Shown here in pieces: positions 8,726 through 27,416 of a stretch of 35,883 bases of DNA; within the stretch, counting starts at the first letter, position 1; every line of letters starts with the position of its first letter. The position numbers and the translations under genes were made by a program. A model generated the notes under the pieces. The model did no database searches. It saw only the letters and a program-made list of their open reading frames with translations, and was not told the origin of the DNA. Source of the stretch: Gammaproteobacteria bacterium (lineage in GTDB: Bacteria > Pseudomonadota > Gammaproteobacteria > Arenicellales > Poriferihabitantaceae); NCBI GenBank assembly GCA_011523765.1, contig WTGA01000130.1, positions 1-35,883 of the forward strand. The letters are read 5' to 3'.

Positions 8726-9640
8726 ATGCCAAAACGTCATGCCAAGACTATCAGCTTGTTTGACTTCATGCAACAATACCCCGCTGAACAGGACGCTATC
8801 GGGTACTTCGAGAAAACCCGATGGGGGGACGAGCCGTTCTGTACCAAATGCGGGTGTGCAGGGCGCATCACCCCCCAGAAGAACTACAAGAAGGGGTACT
8901 GGTGCGGGGATTGCCGCAGTTACTTCAATGCCTTCACCAACACTCCATTGGAACACAGCCGGGTGGATGCCCGTAAATGGATGTTTGCAGCGTATCTGTT
9001 AATGACGGCCAGAAAAGGTATCTCGGCCATGCAGTTGTCCAAGGAACTGGATGTCAGCTACCCCACGGCTTGGTATATGCTTCACCGCTTGCGGGTGGCT
9101 TGTGGAAGTGATCAGGAAGCCCTGAGCGGTGACGTTGAGATTGATGCCGGTTATTTGGGTGGCAAGGAGTCCAACAAACACGCCAACAAGAAGTTGAAGG
9201 CCGGGCGCGGGACCGTAGGCAAGCAGCCCGTGCTGGGGATGAGACAACGCAAGGGGAAGGTCAAGGCCATGGTGGTGAAGGGAGAGGACAAGAAAACCGT
9301 GTACAATGCCATTCATGCCCACGTTGAGACCCGTTCCCCGATTTATGCCGATGATCACAAGGGGTATCGAGGGACCGGGGAACTCTTCTATCACCATGAA
9401 AGCGTCAATCATTCAACCAGGGAGCACGTGAACGGTATGGCCCATACGAACGGCATCGAATCCGTTTGGGCCTTGCTCAAGCGCGGCTTCAATGGTATCT
9501 ACCACAATTGGAGCCGGAAGCACTGCCAGAAGTATGTCAATGAGTTCACCTTCCGGCTGAACGAGGGAAATTGTTCACGTGATACCCAGGACCGTCTGGA
9601 CAGCCTGTTCGGGGCGATGCCGGGCAAGAATCACCTATGA
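8726..9640 (+). CDS. IS1595-family (ISXO2-like) transposase
   Basis: The 304-residue protein has the order expected of the family. An N-terminal zinc ribbon uses C39/C42 and C60/C63 (FCTKC, WCGDC). A helix-turn-helix-like segment follows near 100-122 (LSKELDVSYPTAWYML). The ISXO2-type catalytic domain then has D140 in VEIDAGYLGGKE, the aspartates of YADDHKGY (209-210), and HTNGIESVWALLKRG supplying N242/E245 and a downstream lysine. The reading frame is intact, so the element may be active. The ATG at 8726 is in frame and the protein is of usual length. It is divergent from the Panacea gene. Confidence 0.93.
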   Translation: MPKRHAKTISLFDFMQQYPAEQDAIGYFEKTRWGDEPFCTKCGCAGRITPQKNYKKGYWCGDCRSYFNAFTNTPLEHSRVDARKWMFAAYLLMTARKGISAMQLSKELDVSYPTAWYMLHRLRVACGSDQEALSGDVEIDAGYLGGKESNKHANKKLKAGRGTVGKQPVLGMRQRKGKVKAMVVKGEDKKTVYNAIHAHVETRSPIYADDHKGYRGTGELFYHHESVNHSTREHVNGMAHTNGIESVWALLKRGFNGIYHNWSRKHCQKYVNEFTFRLNEGNCSRDTQDRLDSLFGAMPGKNHL

Positions 9641-18795: not shown

Positions 18796-19287
18796 ATGCA
18801 TCGTCAAACCGTTGTCCTGGTCGCTCTTGCAGGAGCCTGGTGTCTGTTGTCCGGGCACTATTCCGGCCTGCTGCTCTCGCTCGGTCTGGTGTCCTGCCTG
18901 GCCTGTTGCTGGATCTACCACAAAATATCCATCGATTCACAGAACCCGGAAATCAGGGTCCATCCAATCCGGCAACTGAATTATCTGGCCTGGTTGCTGG
19001 TGCAGATATTCAAATCGAATGTGCAGGTGATCGGCGCCGTGATTTCCCCGGGGAAAATTTCACCACAGTTCTTCAAGGTCAAGACGGGGTCCCTGGATGA
19101 AGCCGGCCGCGTGATTTATGCGAATTCCATCACCCTCACCCCCGGCACGGTGAGCACCCGTGTCAGCGAGGATGAAATCCAGGTTCACGCGCTGCTTGAA
19201 AGCTCCAGGCAAGGGCTGATGGACAACAAAATGCTGGGCAAGGTACAGCATTTAAGGCGAGAGACCCCGGACCGGTCGGAAGGGTGA
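18796..19287 (+). CDS. mrpE: Cation/proton antiporter subunit MrpE
   Basis: This 163-residue subunit E (MnhE/MbhA type) belongs to a multisubunit monovalent cation/proton antiporter. Two or three N-terminal helices are followed by a cytoplasmic domain. Typical features are NYLAWLLVQIFKSNVQV and ANSITLTPGTVSTRV near residues 105-120. The ATG at 18796 (MHRQTVVLVAL) begins the first helix; the track adds 67 residues with no membrane character. It is the first gene of a nine-gene operon in which nearly all junctions overlap or are within a few bases. Confidence 0.93.
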   Translation: MHRQTVVLVALAGAWCLLSGHYSGLLLSLGLVSCLACCWIYHKISIDSQNPEIRVHPIRQLNYLAWLLVQIFKSNVQVIGAVISPGKISPQFFKVKTGSLDEAGRVIYANSITLTPGTVSTRVSEDEIQVHALLESSRQGLMDNKMLGKVQHLRRETPDRSEG

Positions 19288-19289
19288 TC

Positions 19290-19562
19290 ATGGAAACGGT
19301 TTATCTCATCGTGTTGGGGCTGCTGCTGATTGCGGGCCTGCTCTCGATATGGCGCGCCGGCATTGGTCCGACACGGTTTGACCGCATTCTGGCGGTCAAC
19401 ACGTTCACTTCCAAAAGCATTCTTTTCATTTCGGTTTACCTGTTTGCCACGGGTCATCCGGAATATCTTGACATAGCACTGCTGTATGCGCTGGTGAACT
19501 ATGTCACATCACTGGCATTGGTCAATTACCTGAACCGAAACCCGGTGTCGGCCAATGACTGA
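19290..19562 (+). CDS. mrpF: Cation/proton antiporter subunit MrpF
   Basis: This is a small three-helix subunit of about 90 residues. The GIGPTRFDRILAVNTFTSK segment after the first helix is the family signature. The ATG at 19290 lies 2 bases after the mrpE stop; a GTG at 19284 overlapping that stop is an alternative. The 3' end overlaps mrpG by 8 bases, which favours coupled translation and fixed stoichiometry. Confidence 0.94.
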   Translation: METVYLIVLGLLLIAGLLSIWRAGIGPTRFDRILAVNTFTSKSILFISVYLFATGHPEYLDIALLYALVNYVTSLALVNYLNRNPVSAND

Positions 19563-19878
19563 GATTCTCGGCAGCCTATTGCTTCTTCTGGGCGTTCTGA
19601 CGGTGCTGGTGGGGGGGGTCGGCCTGTTCCGCTTCCCCGATTTTTTCTGCCGGTTGCACAGTGCCAGCATTGTGGACACGCTGGGGGCGGGCCTGGTGTT
19701 GCTTGGCATGCTGGTGCTGTCCGGGTCGGTGGTGATTGCGTTCAAGGTTGCAATGATTGGTGCGCTGATCTTCTTTCTGTCGCCGATGACCGCGCATGCA
19801 CTGGCGAGGGCCGCATTGCGCTCTGGAATGCACCGCGACAAGCCGGGCAGCGGCCCGTCCACAGGGGGCATGAAATGA
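19555..19878 (+). CDS. mrpG: Cation/proton antiporter subunit MrpG
   Basis: This 107-residue, three-helix subunit contains the signature GLFRFPDFFCRLHSAS followed by DTLGAGLVLLGM and FFLSPMTAHALARAAL, as in MnhG/MbhC proteins. A run of eight G occurs at 19611-19618, encoding part of VGGVG. The last four bases (ATGA) are shared with the start of the next gene. Confidence 0.94.
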   Translation: MTEILGSLLLLLGVLTVLVGGVGLFRFPDFFCRLHSASIVDTLGAGLVLLGMLVLSGSVVIAFKVAMIGALIFFLSPMTAHALARAALRSGMHRDKPGSGPSTGGMK

Positions 19879-20858
19879 TCAATGTCGTCGCGGATGTGGG
19901 GCTGCTTTGCCTGCTGCTGACGGTTGCCCTGGCCATTGTCTGCACCCGAAGCCCGTTATCACTGGTTCTTTTGTCCGGGATTTACAGCATCGCCCTTTGC
20001 ACCCTGTTTGTCATTCTCGATGCCGTGGACGTTGCGTTTACGGAAGCCGCGGTCGGTGCCGGAATCTCCGCCATATTGTTTTTTGCCGTGATCCGTCCCG
20101 AAGATGAGCCCGTGACCGCCTTTTCGTGGCCATCTTCCAGGGCAATCCTGCTCGGTCTTGGGGTCGGTGTGCTGTTGCTGGCCGGCACGCTGGACATGCC
20201 GATGTACGGGGACCACCTGGCACCGGCACACCAGCATCTTGCGCTTCGGTTTCTCGGACAATCCTTTGAAGAAATTGGAATCCCCAATGTGGTGACTTCC
20301 GTGCTGGCCAGCTATCGCGGGTATGACACGCTCGGCGAAGTTGTGGTCATTTTTACCGCGGGAGTGGCGGTTTTGATCTTGCAGCCGGACAACAAGAAAG
20401 GCCCTGCAAAACCGGGAGACCGGGACCGTTTCGCCCCGGAGCTGATGGGGAATCCGGTGCTGAAAACCGTTCTGCTTCGAATGATCCCCCTGGTGGTCCT
20501 GTTCGGTCTGTATGTGCAGTTCCATGGTGATTACGGGCCGGGCGGCGGGTTTCAGGCGGGGGTTATTTTGGGGGCCGGGGTGATTACCTACGGGTTGCTT
20601 TCCAGCGCGACCAGGCTGAAGCGGATCATTTCAGACAAGTGGGTCACGCTGGGCATGGCACTGGGTGTGCTGGTCTATGGCCTGGTCGGGGTTGCCGGGT
20701 TGTTTCTGGGGGCCAATTTCCTGGACTATTCGGTCCTCGGGCCTACCCAGACTGCCGGACAACACCTGGGGATCCTCCTGATTGAACTGGGGGTCGGCTT
20801 GACGGTTTCATGCACCATGGTGTCACTCTATTATTGTTTCAAGCAGGGGGAATCATGA
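19875..20858 (+). CDS. mrpB: Fused MbhD/MbhE-MnhB antiporter subunit
   Basis: The 327-residue protein joins parts that are often separate genes. Residues about 10-75 resemble MbhD, which equals the DUF4040 part of MrpA, with a conserved glutamate in AFTEAAVGAG (E57). Residues about 90-165 carry the MbhE signature NVVTSVLASYRGYDTLGE, and residues about 200-320 are an MnhB domain with FHGDYGPGGGFQAG (216-229). In Bacillus-type Mrp the first two parts form the C-terminus of MrpA. Here they are fused to MrpB, and the NuoL-like half of MrpA must be supplied by another gene of the operon. It overlaps mrpG and mrpC by four bases each. Confidence 0.92.
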   Translation: MINVVADVGLLCLLLTVALAIVCTRSPLSLVLLSGIYSIALCTLFVILDAVDVAFTEAAVGAGISAILFFAVIRPEDEPVTAFSWPSSRAILLGLGVGVLLLAGTLDMPMYGDHLAPAHQHLALRFLGQSFEEIGIPNVVTSVLASYRGYDTLGEVVVIFTAGVAVLILQPDNKKGPAKPGDRDRFAPELMGNPVLKTVLLRMIPLVVLFGLYVQFHGDYGPGGGFQAGVILGAGVITYGLLSSATRLKRIISDKWVTLGMALGVLVYGLVGVAGLFLGANFLDYSVLGPTQTAGQHLGILLIELGVGLTVSCTMVSLYYCFKQGES

Positions 20859-21223
20859 GCTTCCCCGGGTTATTGAATTACTGGGTTGCGCTCATACTGC
20901 TGGTATGCGGGCTGATCATTGTCATGGACAGCCGCAACCTGGTCAAGAAACTGGTCGGCCTGGGAATTTTCCAGTCCGCCGTGTTCCTGGTCTTTATCAC
21001 CCTGGGCAAGAAATCGGACGGCAGCGCACCCATTCTGGATGCGTCGGTTTCCGTTTACAGCAATCCCCTGCCCCATGTCCTGATTCTCACGGCGATCGTG
21101 GTCGGGGTTGCCACCACCGCGGTGGGGCTCGCGCTGGTGGCAAGAATCCGCCGGGCATACGGCACGATTGATGAAGATGAAATCGACGACCGGCCGGAAG
21201 TAGAGCCGGAGATCGTCCCCTGA
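20855..21223 (+). CDS. mrpC: Cation/proton antiporter subunit MrpC
   Basis: This 122-residue, three-helix subunit is homologous to NuoK of respiratory complex I. NLVKKLVGLGIFQSAVFLV and LPHVLILTAIVVGVATTAVG are the family segments, followed by an acidic C-terminal tail (DEDEIDDRPEVEPE). The ATG at 20855 overlaps the previous stop as ATGA; the track start 45 bases earlier would lie inside the previous gene. Its stop shares one base with the ATG of the next gene. Confidence 0.94.
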   Translation: MSFPGLLNYWVALILLVCGLIIVMDSRNLVKKLVGLGIFQSAVFLVFITLGKKSDGSAPILDASVSVYSNPLPHVLILTAIVVGVATTAVGLALVARIRRAYGTIDEDEIDDRPEVEPEIVP

Positions 21224-22725
21224 TGGATTCGCTCATCCCTGCGCTGGAGAATCACCTGCCCATCCTGCAGGTGATTGTTCCACTCCTGATCGCCCCGTTT
21301 TGCATGATTCTGGGCAGTCGCAGGCTGGCGCGCGGGATCATGGTACTGACCGCCGGGATCATGTTGGCGATTACCCTGGGACTGGCAAGCCTGACGCTGC
21401 AGCAGCCGGTCATCACCTATGACCTGGGGGGTTGGGCCGCCCCCTGGGGAATCGAATACAGGGTCGACATGCTGACCGTCTTCATCCTGTTTACGATCAA
21501 CCTGGTCCACATGCTGGCATCGGTATTTTGCCTGGGCAGGCAGGACGGCAACCTGGGGACGGCCGCCAGGCCGGCATTCTATACCGCCTGGCTGCTGTGC
21601 ATCGCCGGACTGAATGGCATGGTGGTCACCAACGACGCGTTCAATGTTTTTGTGTTTCTGGAAATCAGTTCTCTGGCCACCTATACACTCATCAGCTGTG
21701 GCCGGGAACCGCTCGCACTGCTGTCCGCATTTCGTTACCTGGTGGCGGGGGCCGTGGGAGCTACGTTCATCCTGCTGTCCATCGGGTTGCTCTACATGCA
21801 AACGGGAACGCTGAATATTTCAGACCTGTCCCGGGTGATTGCGGAAAGAGGTTCGGACAGAACCATCATCCTGGCGCTGGCTTTTTTCATCATTGGCGTG
21901 GGGGTGAAGTGCGCGGTATTTCCCCTGCACGACTGGCTGCCGAATGCCTATCGCTTTGCTCCCGATTCCGTGACGGTGCTGTTGTCGGGGACAGCCACCA
22001 AGGTCGCCCTGTACGTGCTGATCCGGTTCCTGCATGACCTGTTCGGGGCGGATTTCGGCTTTGCTGAAATGCCGCTGGACATGGTGTTGGTGGTTACCGC
22101 GATTTTCGGGTTGTTGCTGGTGCCGTTCATTGCCTTGCGGGAGTCCAACCTGAAAAGGATGTTTGCCTGGTCCAGCGTCGCCCAGGTTTCGTATATCGTG
22201 ATGGGAATTGGTCTGGGAACCCGGTTGGGGATCGAGGCGGCCTTGCTCCACCTGTTTAACCACGCCATTGTCAAGACGGCGATTTTCATGGCCGTGGGGA
22301 TAATCATCGCCCGGACCGGAACGGCCCGGATCAGGCATCTCGGCGGCATGGCGCACCGACACCGGTTTGCCAGCTGCATCATGCTTTTCGGCGGGCTCAG
22401 CCTGATTGGCCTGCCAGGCACGGTCGGTTTTGTCAGCAAATGGGTGCTCGTTACCGCCGTGGTGGACAAGGGCTGGTGGTGGCTTGCCATCCCCATACTG
22501 GCCGGGTCGCTGGCCAGTGCCGCCTATGTCTGGAGAATTGTCGAAATAATGTGGACAAAACCCGCGGTCCTCAAGCCGGAGGCCCCCGCCGCGCGGCTCC
22601 ATTGGGTGGAATGGCTGCCGCTGAGCGTTCTGGCCGGGTTAGCGCTTTGGTTCGGGCTGAATGCATCCCTGATTACGGGACTTGCGTCATCTGCGGCGCT
22701 GGGACTGTTGAATCCGGGCGGCTGA
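21223..22725 (+). CDS. mrpD: Antiporter subunit D (NuoN/M-type proton channel)
   Basis: This 500-residue integral membrane protein of the NuoL/M/N and MrpA/D superfamily has about 14 helices. The conserved residues of the proton path are visible: E147 in NVFVFLEISSLATYT, K229 and H236 in VKCAVFPLHDWLPNAY, and K260 in GTATKVALY. This is the first of three large channel-type subunits in the operon and the best MrpD counterpart by position directly after MrpC. It is separated from the next gene by two bases. Confidence 0.93.
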   Translation: MDSLIPALENHLPILQVIVPLLIAPFCMILGSRRLARGIMVLTAGIMLAITLGLASLTLQQPVITYDLGGWAAPWGIEYRVDMLTVFILFTINLVHMLASVFCLGRQDGNLGTAARPAFYTAWLLCIAGLNGMVVTNDAFNVFVFLEISSLATYTLISCGREPLALLSAFRYLVAGAVGATFILLSIGLLYMQTGTLNISDLSRVIAERGSDRTIILALAFFIIGVGVKCAVFPLHDWLPNAYRFAPDSVTVLLSGTATKVALYVLIRFLHDLFGADFGFAEMPLDMVLVVTAIFGLLLVPFIALRESNLKRMFAWSSVAQVSYIVMGIGLGTRLGIEAALLHLFNHAIVKTAIFMAVGIIIARTGTARIRHLGGMAHRHRFASCIMLFGGLSLIGLPGTVGFVSKWVLVTAVVDKGWWWLAIPILAGSLASAAYVWRIVEIMWTKPAVLKPEAPAARLHWVEWLPLSVLAGLALWFGLNASLITGLASSAALGLLNPGG

Positions 22726-22727
22726 CC

Positions 22728-24167
22728 ATGATCACGCCCGCAACCGCTGTTTTCATTCCATTTCTTGGCGCAATCCTGGTGGTTGCGGCAGGCAACCGGG
22801 CATCGCGGTTGCGCAATCATTCCCTGGTCGCCACCGGCTGTGTCAATCTGGCGGTATTGATCGTCATCGCGCTGGACCGGGGAAGCCATGCCGAAGCCCA
22901 GGTCCTCCTGGAAACCCTGCCGGGCCTTAGGATTGCCTTTCATGTCGAGCCCCTGGGCCTGATTTTCGCCCTGACTGCCGGGCTGCTGTGGCCGGTTACT
23001 TCGATGTATGCCATTGGTTACATGGAGGCGTGCAGGGACGAGCACCGGACCCGGTTTCATGCCCTGTTCTGTGTTGCGGTCGGCAGTGCGATGGGGGTGG
23101 CTTTCGCTGAAAACCTGTTTACCCTGTTCCTGTTTTATGAAATCCTGACTTTTTCCACTTGGCCGCTGGTGACGCATAACCGGACCCCCGAAGCCGTATC
23201 GGCGGGCCGGGTATATTTGGGGGTGTTGCTCACCACCTCGGTGCTGATGTTCCTTCTTGCCGTGGTCGTGGTCGGGAATTTTGGTGACACCCTGTCTTTC
23301 CGGCCAGGCGGGGTGCTCGGTTCCCTGGGCCCATCGGCAACGACCGTGCTCCTGCTCCTGTTTGTATTCGGCATTGGCAAGGCAGCGGTCATGCCCTTTC
23401 ACCGCTGGTTGCCCAATGCCATGGTGGCGCCGGCTCCCGTGAGCGCCCTGCTCCATGCTGTGGCCGTGGTAAAAGCCGGGGTGTTTTCCATCTTGAAGAT
23501 CAGCGTGTATACCTTTGGCTTCGACAGCCTGGAATCCGTGCTGCGGCATGAGCTCATCATGTGGATTCCCGCAGTCACCATCCTGCTGGCATCGACCATT
23601 GCCATGAAGCAGGATGATATCAAGGCCCGGCTCGCCTATTCGACAGTCAGCCAGCTCTCCTATATCGTTCTCGGGGCGTTGCTGGCCAACCAGTTGGCCA
23701 TGGTGGGCAGCACCCTGCACATCACCATGCATGCCTTCGGCAAGATCACCCTGTTTTTCTGTGCAGGGGCCATCATGGTCTTTGCGAACAAGAAATATGT
23801 TTCTGAAATGAATGGTCTGGGCAGGGCGATGCCGTGGACATTCGGGGCATTCCTGGTGGCGTCGTTGTCCATCTGCGGATTGCCGCCGACGGGGGGGCTG
23901 TGGAGCAAATGGTATCTGGCCATGGGAACGCTGGAACGGGGGCAGATGGGATTGCTGGCCGTGTTGATGGTGAGTTCGCTGCTGAACCTGTACTATCTCA
24001 CCGCCATCCCGTTCCGGGCCTTTTTCCTGGGCGGTGATGTGGACCGTGGTTTCCTGGAAAACCGGGCATCCATGGTTGCGGCATTGGTGACAACGGCCGC
24101 CATCAGTGTGCTGCTCTTCTTTTTTGCCAGCGACCTGGCCGGCCTGGTGACGGAGATCAAAACATGA
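22728..24167 (+). CDS. Second NuoL/MrpA-type proton-channel subunit
   Basis: The protein has 479 residues from the ATG at 22728; the track's longer version begins inside the previous gene. The NuoL/MrpA/MrpD pattern is clear: E138 in FTLFLFYEILTFS, GIGKAAVMPFHRWLPNAM with the transmembrane lysine, and LLHAVAVVKAGVF. MrpA itself is not present as one large protein. This subunit, with the MbhD/E part of the fused MrpB, could jointly replace MrpA. That split is an inference. The last four bases overlap the following small membrane-protein gene. Confidence 0.9.
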   Translation: MITPATAVFIPFLGAILVVAAGNRASRLRNHSLVATGCVNLAVLIVIALDRGSHAEAQVLLETLPGLRIAFHVEPLGLIFALTAGLLWPVTSMYAIGYMEACRDEHRTRFHALFCVAVGSAMGVAFAENLFTLFLFYEILTFSTWPLVTHNRTPEAVSAGRVYLGVLLTTSVLMFLLAVVVVGNFGDTLSFRPGGVLGSLGPSATTVLLLLFVFGIGKAAVMPFHRWLPNAMVAPAPVSALLHAVAVVKAGVFSILKISVYTFGFDSLESVLRHELIMWIPAVTILLASTIAMKQDDIKARLAYSTVSQLSYIVLGALLANQLAMVGSTLHITMHAFGKITLFFCAGAIMVFANKKYVSEMNGLGRAMPWTFGAFLVASLSICGLPPTGGLWSKWYLAMGTLERGQMGLLAVLMVSSLLNLYYLTAIPFRAFFLGGDVDRGFLENRASMVAALVTTAAISVLLFFFASDLAGLVTEIKT

Positions 24168-24403
24168 TTGAAAAATTCAGGTCTCTTTCTCCCCGTTTGC
24201 GCCGCGGGCTGCAGGTGTTTTTCGCTGTCTGTGCCCTGGTGACGCTGCTCGATATCTTTGTTCACAAGCATCACGGTGAGGAGCACTGGTGGGGGTTTTT
24301 GGGTTTCTTCAGCGCGTATGGTTTCATTGCCTGTGTTGTGCTGGTAGTGGTCGCCACCTGGATGCGGCGCGTCGTCATGCGCGATGAGGATTATTATGAC
24401 TAA
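24164..24403 (+). CDS. Small two-helix membrane protein within antiporter operon
   Basis: The 79-residue protein has one helix at about 15-33, a His/Glu-rich loop HKHHGEEH (34-41), a second helix at about 43-66 (WWGFLGFFSAYGFIACVVLV), and an acidic tail ending DEDYYD. I do not recognise it as an Mrp subunit. It overlaps the upstream gene by four bases and the downstream gene by eight, so it is almost certainly made with the complex. The histidine/glutamate loop might bind a metal or influence proton entry. This is a guess from composition. Confidence 0.8.
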   Translation: MIEKFRSLSPRLRRGLQVFFAVCALVTLLDIFVHKHHGEEHWWGFLGFFSAYGFIACVVLVVVATWMRRVVMRDEDYYD

Positions 24404-26093
24404 TGCCCCGTTCCTGATTTTCTTTGCCGGGGCCGCCATCGCAATGGCCGTGCCGCTGCGATGGCGAAACGGAGTGTTGCTGGCCGTGCCCGTGATCGGG
24501 CTGGCCAACCTGCTGGCAATGGACCCGTCGCAGCAATGGACCATTGAGTGGCTGGGGCTTCAGCTGGTGCCGTTTACCAGCGACCGCCTGAGTTTCATTT
24601 TTGGTGTGCTGTTTCACATTGCGGCCATCCTCGCGACGATTTTTGCCTGGCATGTGCAGGACCGGCCCCAGCAGGCGGCAGCCCTTCTGTATCCCGGCAG
24701 TGCCCTGGGTGCGGTCTTCGCCGGGGATTTGCTGACCCTGTTCGTGTTCTGGGAATGCCTGGCATTGTCCTCGGTGTTTTTCATCACCGCGCGCGGGACG
24801 CCCCTCGCCATCAAGGCAGCCATCCGCTACCTGGTCATCCAGGTCCTTTCTGGCGTGCTGCTGTTAAGCGGCACACTGGTCATGCTGGATCATTCCGGCC
24901 AGATTGCGGTCGGCCCCCTGGACATTTCCCAGCCGGGCGCCAAACTGTTGCTCCTGGCCTTTGGAATCAAGGCGGCATTCCCGATGCTGCATAACTGGCT
25001 GACCGATGCCTATCCGGAAGCCACCCCCAGCGGTACGGTCTTTCTCTGCGCATTCACCACCAAAGTGGCCGTCTACATCCTGGCGCGTACCTTTTCCGGC
25101 CTGGACCTGCTTATCTATGTCGGTGGCATCATGGCCTGTTTCCCGATTTTTTACGCGGTGATCGAAAACGACCTGAGGAGGGTGCTGGGTTACAGCATGA
25201 TCAACCAGATCGGCTTCATGGTGTGCGGGATCGGTATCGGCACTGAACTGGCCGTCAACGGTGCCGTGGCCCATGCCTTCAATGATGTCCTGTTCAAGGG
25301 CCTGCTGCTGATGAGCATGGGTGCCGTACTGTTTCGTACCGGTGAGATGCGGGGGTCGGAACTGGGGGGATTGGCCAGGACGATGCCGAAAACCACGGGG
25401 CTGTGCATTGTCGGTGCCGCATCGATATCCGCGTTCCCCCTTTTCAGCGGTTTCGTGAGCAAGTCCATGGTCATGGCAGCCCTGCTGATCGAGCACCATG
25501 AAATCCTCTGGCTGGCCATGCTTTTTGCCTCGGCCGGGGTGTTCCATCATGCCGGGATCAAAATACCGTACTTTGCGTTTTTTGCCCACGATTCCGGAAA
25601 GCGGCCGGACGAGGCACCCGCCCACATGCTGGTGGCCATGTCCCTGGCGGCGGTACTGTGTGTCTTTATCGGTTGCTATCCGTGGCTCCTGTACAGTCAT
25701 TTGCCCTTTGCCGTGGATTACCTGCCGTTCGACATTCCGCATGTGGTGGAGCAGCTCCAGATACTGTTTTTTTCGGCATTGGCGTTTGTCTGGCTGCAGT
25801 TGTCAGGGATCTACCCTCCCGAGCTCCGGTCCACCAACCTTGACAGCGAGTGGCTGTACCGGAAAGTGTGTCCCGCCGTGTACGCCGTATACTATCGGAG
25901 CGCGCAGCATGCCAGAAAGGGGTTTTATCATGCCGTTACGGGCCTAGCCGGCATGTTGACACCCATGGCCCGGCAGCACTCCTATCATTTGCTCATGCCC
26001 TGGTCTGTACGAGGCATCGTGATGATTACAATGGGCTTTCTGGGCATCATCCTGTTGTTGTTCTATCTGTATTCACGGCTGCCCGGGGGTTGA
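24396..26093 (+). CDS. Third NuoL/M/N-type proton-channel subunit
   Basis: This 565-residue protein starts from the ATG at 24396 (MTNAPFLIFF), which overlaps the small gene upstream. The channel-family residues are E120 in LTLFVFWECLALSS, the GIKAAFPMLHNWLTDAYPEA segment with its membrane lysine, and TKVAVYILAR. It is longer at the C-terminus than the other two, with extra helices and a long amphipathic stretch around residues 470-535, reminiscent of the lateral helix of NuoL. It is the last gene of the operon; 165 bases separate it from the Rieske gene. Confidence 0.9.
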   Translation: MTNAPFLIFFAGAAIAMAVPLRWRNGVLLAVPVIGLANLLAMDPSQQWTIEWLGLQLVPFTSDRLSFIFGVLFHIAAILATIFAWHVQDRPQQAAALLYPGSALGAVFAGDLLTLFVFWECLALSSVFFITARGTPLAIKAAIRYLVIQVLSGVLLLSGTLVMLDHSGQIAVGPLDISQPGAKLLLLAFGIKAAFPMLHNWLTDAYPEATPSGTVFLCAFTTKVAVYILARTFSGLDLLIYVGGIMACFPIFYAVIENDLRRVLGYSMINQIGFMVCGIGIGTELAVNGAVAHAFNDVLFKGLLLMSMGAVLFRTGEMRGSELGGLARTMPKTTGLCIVGAASISAFPLFSGFVSKSMVMAALLIEHHEILWLAMLFASAGVFHHAGIKIPYFAFFAHDSGKRPDEAPAHMLVAMSLAAVLCVFIGCYPWLLYSHLPFAVDYLPFDIPHVVEQLQILFFSALAFVWLQLSGIYPPELRSTNLDSEWLYRKVCPAVYAVYYRSAQHARKGFYHAVTGLAGMLTPMARQHSYHLLMPWSVRGIVMITMGFLGIILLLFYLYSRLPGG

Positions 26094-26258: not shown

Positions 26259-27416
26259 ATGAAATCGTGTAATCTTGAATTGACCGTGTCTGCAGAGTCT
26301 ATAAAACAAGCATTGAGGGCGGTGAGACATCCAGTTGCCTCCTCCAGCAGCCTGCCGCCGCCCTGTTATCACGAGGAGGACTGGTTCAGGCATGAAATGG
26401 AACGCGTATTCAGGCATGGCTGGTTGGGCATCGGTCATCGCGACCAGTGGAAGATGCCGGGGGATTACTCGGCGATCAATGTCGGAAACATCGCCATCGC
26501 GGTGGTCATGGACGAACACGGTACATTGCAGGCGATGTCGAATTCCTGCCTGCACCGGTCCAGCCGGATCCTGAGCGGAAAAGGGCGCTGCAGGGCCATG
26601 GTGTGCCCGTTTCATGGCTGGAGTTATGATTATTCCGGGCAACTGGTTTCCGCGTCCAGAATGGAGAACACACAGGGGTTTTCTGAAAAAGGGATGGCGC
26701 TGAAAAAATTTCATGTGGCCACACAGGATGGTTTTGTGTTCCTGAGCTTGGAGGAAAACCCGGACACTCTTGATCAGTGGCTGGGTGATTTTTCGGACAG
26801 GCATGCATGCTGGTCGTTGGATGACCTGGTAACGGGGCGCCAGCGGGTCCTGGATGTGGACTGCAACTGGAAGCTTTTTCTCGAGGTGTTCAATGAGTAT
26901 TATCACCTCCCTTACGTCCACCCGGACTCCATCAGCCGCTATTACCCGGAACCGGACCCGACGGATGATGTGATCGGTGAATACACGACCCAGTTTGGTT
27001 CAACGACCGCCAACCCCGCGCTCCTGGAAGAAAACCAGGGTTGTTCCCTGCCGCGGATCAAATCGTTGGGCGAGCGGGAAAAAACAGGGGCCCGGTATAC
27101 CTGGGTCTACCCGAATATGACGTTCGCGGCCGGTTCCGACTGTCTGTGGATGTATCATGTCTACCCCTTGACCGCGACCCGCACCCGGGCGGTCCAGACA
27201 GTCTGTTTCCCGTCACAGACGACCCGACTGCCGGAATTTGAGGCCACATCCGAGATTTACTACTCGCGATTTGATATTGCCATTCATGAAGATATCCCGG
27301 CACTTGAAAAGCAGCAGGCGGGGATGGAATCGCCCTTTGCCGTCCAGGGCCGGTTTTCCGCTTTGGAGCCCAGCGTGGGCAATTTTGCCTGCTGGTATGC
27401 GTCCGTTACCCGGTAA
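26259..27416 (+). CDS. Rieske non-heme iron oxygenase, alpha subunit
   Basis: The 385-residue protein has an N-terminal Rieske [2Fe-2S] domain with C97-x-H99 and C116-x2-H119 (CLHRSS, CPFHGW). A catalytic mononuclear iron domain follows, with the bridging region FNEYYHLPYVHP giving H216 and H221, and an acidic ligand in IAIHEDIP near the C-terminus. It belongs to the single-component-type ring-hydroxylating or demethylating oxygenases, which need a separate reductase. No reductase or beta subunit is adjacent, so the substrate and electron donor are unknown. The ATG at 26259 has no strong ribosome site. Confidence 0.92.
   Translation: MKSCNLELTVSAESIKQALRAVRHPVASSSSLPPPCYHEEDWFRHEMERVFRHGWLGIGHRDQWKMPGDYSAINVGNIAIAVVMDEHGTLQAMSNSCLHRSSRILSGKGRCRAMVCPFHGWSYDYSGQLVSASRMENTQGFSEKGMALKKFHVATQDGFVFLSLEENPDTLDQWLGDFSDRHACWSLDDLVTGRQRVLDVDCNWKLFLEVFNEYYHLPYVHPDSISRYYPEPDPTDDVIGEYTTQFGSTTANPALLEENQGCSLPRIKSLGEREKTGARYTWVYPNMTFAAGSDCLWMYHVYPLTATRTRAVQTVCFPSQTTRLPEFEATSEIYYSRFDIAIHEDIPALEKQQAGMESPFAVQGRFSALEPSVGNFACWYASVTR

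Follow-up and report, generated by a model that had tools for sequence, protein, structure and literature searches.

The nine-gene operon at positions 18796-26093 of the window (the whole 35,883-nt stretch of DNA that was analyzed) very probably encodes an Mrp antiporter of group 3 (CPA3), a stand-alone exchanger of monovalent cations for protons that has three proton-channel subunits. Most likely, it is electrogenic, exchanges Na+ for H+, and has a longer proton-channel arm. The sequence itself gave the subunit set, the gene order, the channel residues of the three channel subunits (D1, D2, and D3), and the conserved landmarks on the sodium side, and it showed that no redox module lies nearby. 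Group 3 Mrp is a type that already has a name, and the operon is an ordinary example of it, common in marine proteobacteria. Its remaining interest lies in the cassette that it has in common with complex I (D2-X-D3) and in X, an unnamed subunit that is open to easy testing.

The genes are arranged on the + strand in the order E-F-G-(D/E-B)-C-D1-D2-X-D3 (Table 1). Most neighbors overlap by 1-20 bases, and D1 and D2 are separated by a 2-base gap. The ORFs and domains confirmed the original prediction of three large channel subunits (all full-length Proton_antipo_M proteins) and a small extra membrane protein, and the family E-values of the predicted proteins were far beyond chance. The fusion protein holds MbhD (residues 13-74), MbhE (residues 116-168), and MnhB (residues 195-316) domains and scored 338 bits against NF009161/PRK12507 (cut-off 272); as judged from its domain content, it is the equivalent of the MrpA C-terminal domain (MbhD and MbhE) joined to MnhB (MrpB). 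D3 scored 670 bits against NF009310/PRK12668 (cut-off 564), and NCBIfam already names both D3 and the fusion protein. The start of MrpC is likely the ATG at 20855, and D3 possibly starts at the ATG at 24396. A promoter and terminator scan returned sites no more numerous than in shuffles. Elsewhere in the window, an IS1595-type transposase gene (8726-9640) was found in a local low-GC stretch (49% vs. 55-62% elsewhere).

Table 1. Genes of the antiporter operon, with window coordinates and the matches that identify their products.
Feature	Coordinates	Strand	Evidence
MrpE	18796..19287	+	PF01899 E=3.5e-26; ATG at 18796
MrpF	19284..19562	+	PF04066 E=5.6e-15
MrpG	19555..19878	+	PF03334 E=1.3e-21; TIGR01300 over cut-off
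MbhD-MbhE-MnhB fusion	19875..20858	+	PF13244, PF20501, PF04039 in that order
MrpC/NuoK-like subunit	20810..21223	+	PF00420 E=1e-21; NF005624 over cut-off
D1 channel subunit	21223..22725	+	PF00361 E=5.2e-59
D2 channel subunit	ATG 22728..24167	+	PF00361 E=1.2e-51
X, 79-aa two-helix membrane protein	24164..24403	+	no family over cut-off
D3 channel subunit	24384..26093	+	PF00361 E=1.3e-36

The phylogeny that had been proposed for the channel subunits resolved D1, D2, and D3 as three distinct clades and ruled out a recent duplication of the channel genes. The trees were run under two models, with references for the archaeal and Bacillus chains that were aligned stretches taken from structure matches. 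D1 fell on the MrpD/MbhH/MbsH/NuoN side, and its nearest solved chains were MbsH, MrpD, and MbhH. D2 formed its own clade with 100% support, which included the D2 of green complex I, and D3 formed another separate clade, which included the green complex I D3. Both were placed outside the MrpA, MrpD, NuoL, NuoM, and NuoN clades, the deeper branching being weak. In the alignment, TM5 Glu, TM7 Lys, TM8 Lys, and TM12 Lys were all kept in D1, D2, and D3, and D2 also carries a TM8 His, a residue typical of MrpA and NuoL (PMC4938563). The AlphaFold model of D3 (28 sequences, pLDDT 82) had B. pseudofirmus MrpA as its best fold match and showed a 48-residue helix (489-536) followed by a terminal TM helix (542-564), with a confidence of 43 to 84 at the C-terminal lateral helix region. 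As modeled, D3 has a lateral helix and a terminal TM helix like those of NuoL and MrpA. Sister stand-alone Mrp clusters (L148, L149, L150, and L151) carry a different, HyfB-like third channel subunit in which the TM5 Glu is replaced by Ala, Ser, or Thr; a motif search in L148, L149, and L151 found no X-like small ORF.

The nine-gene order was surveyed in other genomes, as had been suggested, by scanning GTDB genomes with D3; among the at least 590 pattern matches listed, 584 encode a D3 relative. The 80 loci kept were picked by D3 similarity, a choice biased toward D3 and not toward the other eight genes. All nine genes were present in 57 of the 80, which were all of the loci long enough to hold them, and in every one of these complete loci (chosen by D3) the genes followed the same order on one strand. 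The order thus recurred in several phyla (Gamma-, Alpha-, and Betaproteobacteria, Desulfobulbia, and, going by the titles of their records, some other phyla), the D/E-B fusion being split into two ORFs in 30 of the 57 loci. Most of the other 23 loci ended early at contig or locus ends, and four (L043, L045, L073, and L074) held an X-D3 pair alone, unlinked from D1 and D2. These four were suspected to be contig-end artefacts, an explanation ruled out for two of them by single-chromosome assemblies with D1 and D2 hundreds of kilobases away. Thus, D3 is not necessarily produced along with D1 and D2 in every case. Of the 399 genomes examined in the phylum, 22 had D3 (NF009310), 20 had the D/E-B protein (NF009161), and 19 had both. 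The single genome with D/E-B only has a divergent D3; the three D3-only genomes belong to one genus, and the one examined carries nuoJ-nuoK-D2-X-D3-nuoM-nuoN.

As a three-channel antiporter, the complex would take protons inward through D1, D2, and D3, driven by the membrane potential, and these would drive Na+ (or K+) out at the E-F-G-MnhB-MbhD/E end. The subunits would be arranged as [E, F, G, MnhB] - [MbhD/E, C] - D1 - D2 - D3. D3 would be distal, and its lateral helix would follow D2 in the direction of D1, in the manner of NuoL and MrpA. X, a putative structural or coupling subunit, would be situated where D2 and D3 meet or close by. Bacillus Mrp has been modeled at 2 H+ per Na+ (PMC9568556). 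With more channels, more protons might pass per cycle, and a different ion stoichiometry is plausible; the longer arm may admit more than two protons per exported Na+ and may aid Na+ export or pH control under high sodium load. Nature offers a clean comparison among stand-alone Mrp systems, whose channels number one in P. furiosus, two in Bacillus, and three in this operon; it could test whether each channel adds one proton per cycle, a question that concerns both Mrp and complex I.

The original prediction had also raised a redox partner encoded elsewhere, to which we give hardly any credence. The resemblance of the gene order to Mbh favors such a partner, as does the fact that in rhizobia the D2-X-D3 block belongs to green complex I, a genuine redox complex. 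The claim that no catalytic genes follow the operon was borne out: the next gene downstream (26259-27416) encodes a Rieske ring-hydroxylating oxygenase, so that the operon is not followed by hydrogenase or complex I genes, and the scan of window genes to both sides of it found none either. The 3.09-Mb assembly is 96.5% complete, which makes a missing piece possible but unlikely. Its six Proton_antipo_M genes were divided between the antiporter operon (three) and one nuo operon on another contig (three). This nuo operon, the only one in the genome, runs from NuoA to NuoN in order with all 14 subunits, including its own NuoL, NuoM, and NuoN, and contains the sole NuoD homologue of the genome (one PF00346 match). 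The genome had no PF00374 match (NiFe hydrogenase), and its one MbhD domain is that of the D/E-B fusion protein. It is thus unlikely that the genome hides a redox partner. The operon itself did not have the composition of an Mbh-type membrane-bound hydrogenase, which would include catalytic NiFe and Fe-S subunits, or of complex I (green complex I included), because NuoB, C, D, H, and I and the NADH module were absent from it and from the flanks of its 57 homologues. No NuoH-like coupling subunit was found in the operon by family and domain searches, and the flanks of the 57 homologous operons held neither nuo/hyf homologues nor a generally conserved neighbor gene. With nothing found in these flanks or in the genome search for NuoD and hydrogenase families, the redox partner was rejected.

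The coupling ion was considered from landmark motifs placed by pattern and not by structure, with residue roles taken from PMC5703873 and PMC9568556. MrpE has SITLTPGT, the T113-P114 site, and GPTRFDR in MrpF keeps the D32 equivalent; in B. pseudofirmus, antiport is lost when either MrpE-T113 or MrpF-D32 is mutated (PMC5703873). The fusion protein has the MbhD Glu, the DTLGE of MbhE (E780 equivalent), and the GGGF of MnhB (Phe41 equivalent), and MrpC has the LTAIVVG landmark. The equivalent of MrpF D38, which has been proposed to act in sodium transfer in Bacillus (PMC5703873, PMC9568556), is an Asn, both in this MrpF and in the motifs most often seen in the family, and the MrpA-E687 site in the fusion protein follows the MbhD pattern; thus, the sodium route may differ from that of Bacillus Mrp. 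The Asn would also suit K+ or another ion in place of Na+, and Mrp systems for other ions exist (e.g., group 1 Mrp with Ca2+/H+ antiport; PMC5703873), but this is rather unlikely given that most sodium-side landmarks are kept and that Na+ is the coupling ion of a group 3 relative, the stand-alone mrpEFGBB'CD of P. furiosus (PMC8415708). Somewhat less probable still is that D1 alone works in antiport, D2 and D3 (together with X) serving to extend the structure or making up a second, separate transporter. Such a division would agree with the single channel subunit of the P. furiosus system (PMC8415708), with the four genomes in which X-D3 is unlinked, and with the loss of TM5 Glu from the third subunit of the sister clusters, whereas D2 and D3 keep all key residues in the aligned D3-bearing Mrp members (except one basal divergent D3) and both were present in every one of the 20 sampled genomes that carry the D/E-B gene.

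In each of the 57 complete clusters, X lies between D2 and D3, and it holds this position in the green complex I of rhizobia as well. The annotated plasmids of S. meliloti (pSymA) and Ensifer have the order nuoJ-nuoK-D2-X-D3-nuoM-nuoN-nuoA to G; D2-X-D3 (L158:10303-13770 and L144) stands where NuoL would be, and the S. meliloti "hypothetical protein" between D2 and D3 aligns with X over its length. Green complex I has been described, in the portions of PMC9040806 and PMC7415380 consulted, as having "two MrpD-like subunits replace NuoL," and no mention of X was found in the portions consulted of the green complex I literature, leaving aside the original description and most subscription papers. 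In the rhizobial "green" complex, NuoL gives way to D2-X-D3 as a whole, X included, which goes beyond what was found described. X could not be assigned to a known family: its DUF4267 match was below cut-off, and other weak matches looked like chance. No solved relative of X was found, and its structure model (pLDDT 69, pTM 0.42) was too weak to interpret. Tentatively, D2-X-D3 might be a portable distal cassette of proton channels, joined to stand-alone Mrp and (for NuoL) to complex I, in which X, as a dedicated and hitherto unrecognized subunit, couples or stabilizes D2 and D3 and by which the proton:sodium ratio is raised in Mrp. The shared block shows how membrane arms may lengthen by cassette transfer.

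Group 3 Mrp is defined by having mrpD but no mrpA, and mrpD may be present in several copies (PMC8415708); members with several mrpD-type genes have been described (PMC5703873, PMC8415708). Here, mrpE, F, G, B, C, and D are found in one operon with no channel-MbhD fusion (mrpA). An MrpA with an N-terminal channel and MbhD/E, and the A-B-C-D-E-F-G order, which would place the operon in group 1/2, were both absent. The archaeal, Mbh-like order that had been predicted was right, but it is not peculiar to Mbh, being found also in the stand-alone Mrp of P. furiosus (PMC8415708). The composition had been thought unusual, a view that did not hold: several-mrpD group 3 operons have been described, one with two extra channels (in the part of PMC7784846 consulted), and the nine-gene operon is widespread. 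Given the published group 3 operons and the NCBIfam equivalog models for D3 and the fusion protein, the operon therefore largely corresponds to an already described Mrp group.

Among known systems, green complex I (PMC9040806) has D2 and D3 of the same clades and, in the equivalent place, a homologue of X, whereas it is a redox complex without MrpE, F, G, and B, in which the block substitutes for NuoL and D3 has Asn at the TM7 Lys position. Group 1/2 Mrp (Bacillus, Dietzia) has all the module types E, F, G, B, C, and D and the MrpA C-terminal domain, but only two channels (the MrpA N-terminal domain and MrpD), and D2 and D3 lie outside those clades. The group 3 Mrp of "Ca. Nitrospira alkalitolerans," likened here by its description in the part of PMC7784846 consulted, is also stand-alone, with two NuoM/NuoL-like genes after mrpD that its authors read as further mrpA/mrpD-like subunits; it differs in its mrpA-G naming, and X is unmentioned in that part. 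The "MrpEFGBBCDD" of the Solemya velum symbiont, a marine gammaproteobacterium, shares the order E-F-G-B-B-C-D-D, but two D subunits are named and no third appears in the text (PMC4287430). The stand-alone Mrp of P. furiosus matches the operon in order and in having neither MrpA nor a redox module, but has one channel subunit, without D2, X, and D3 (PMC8415708).
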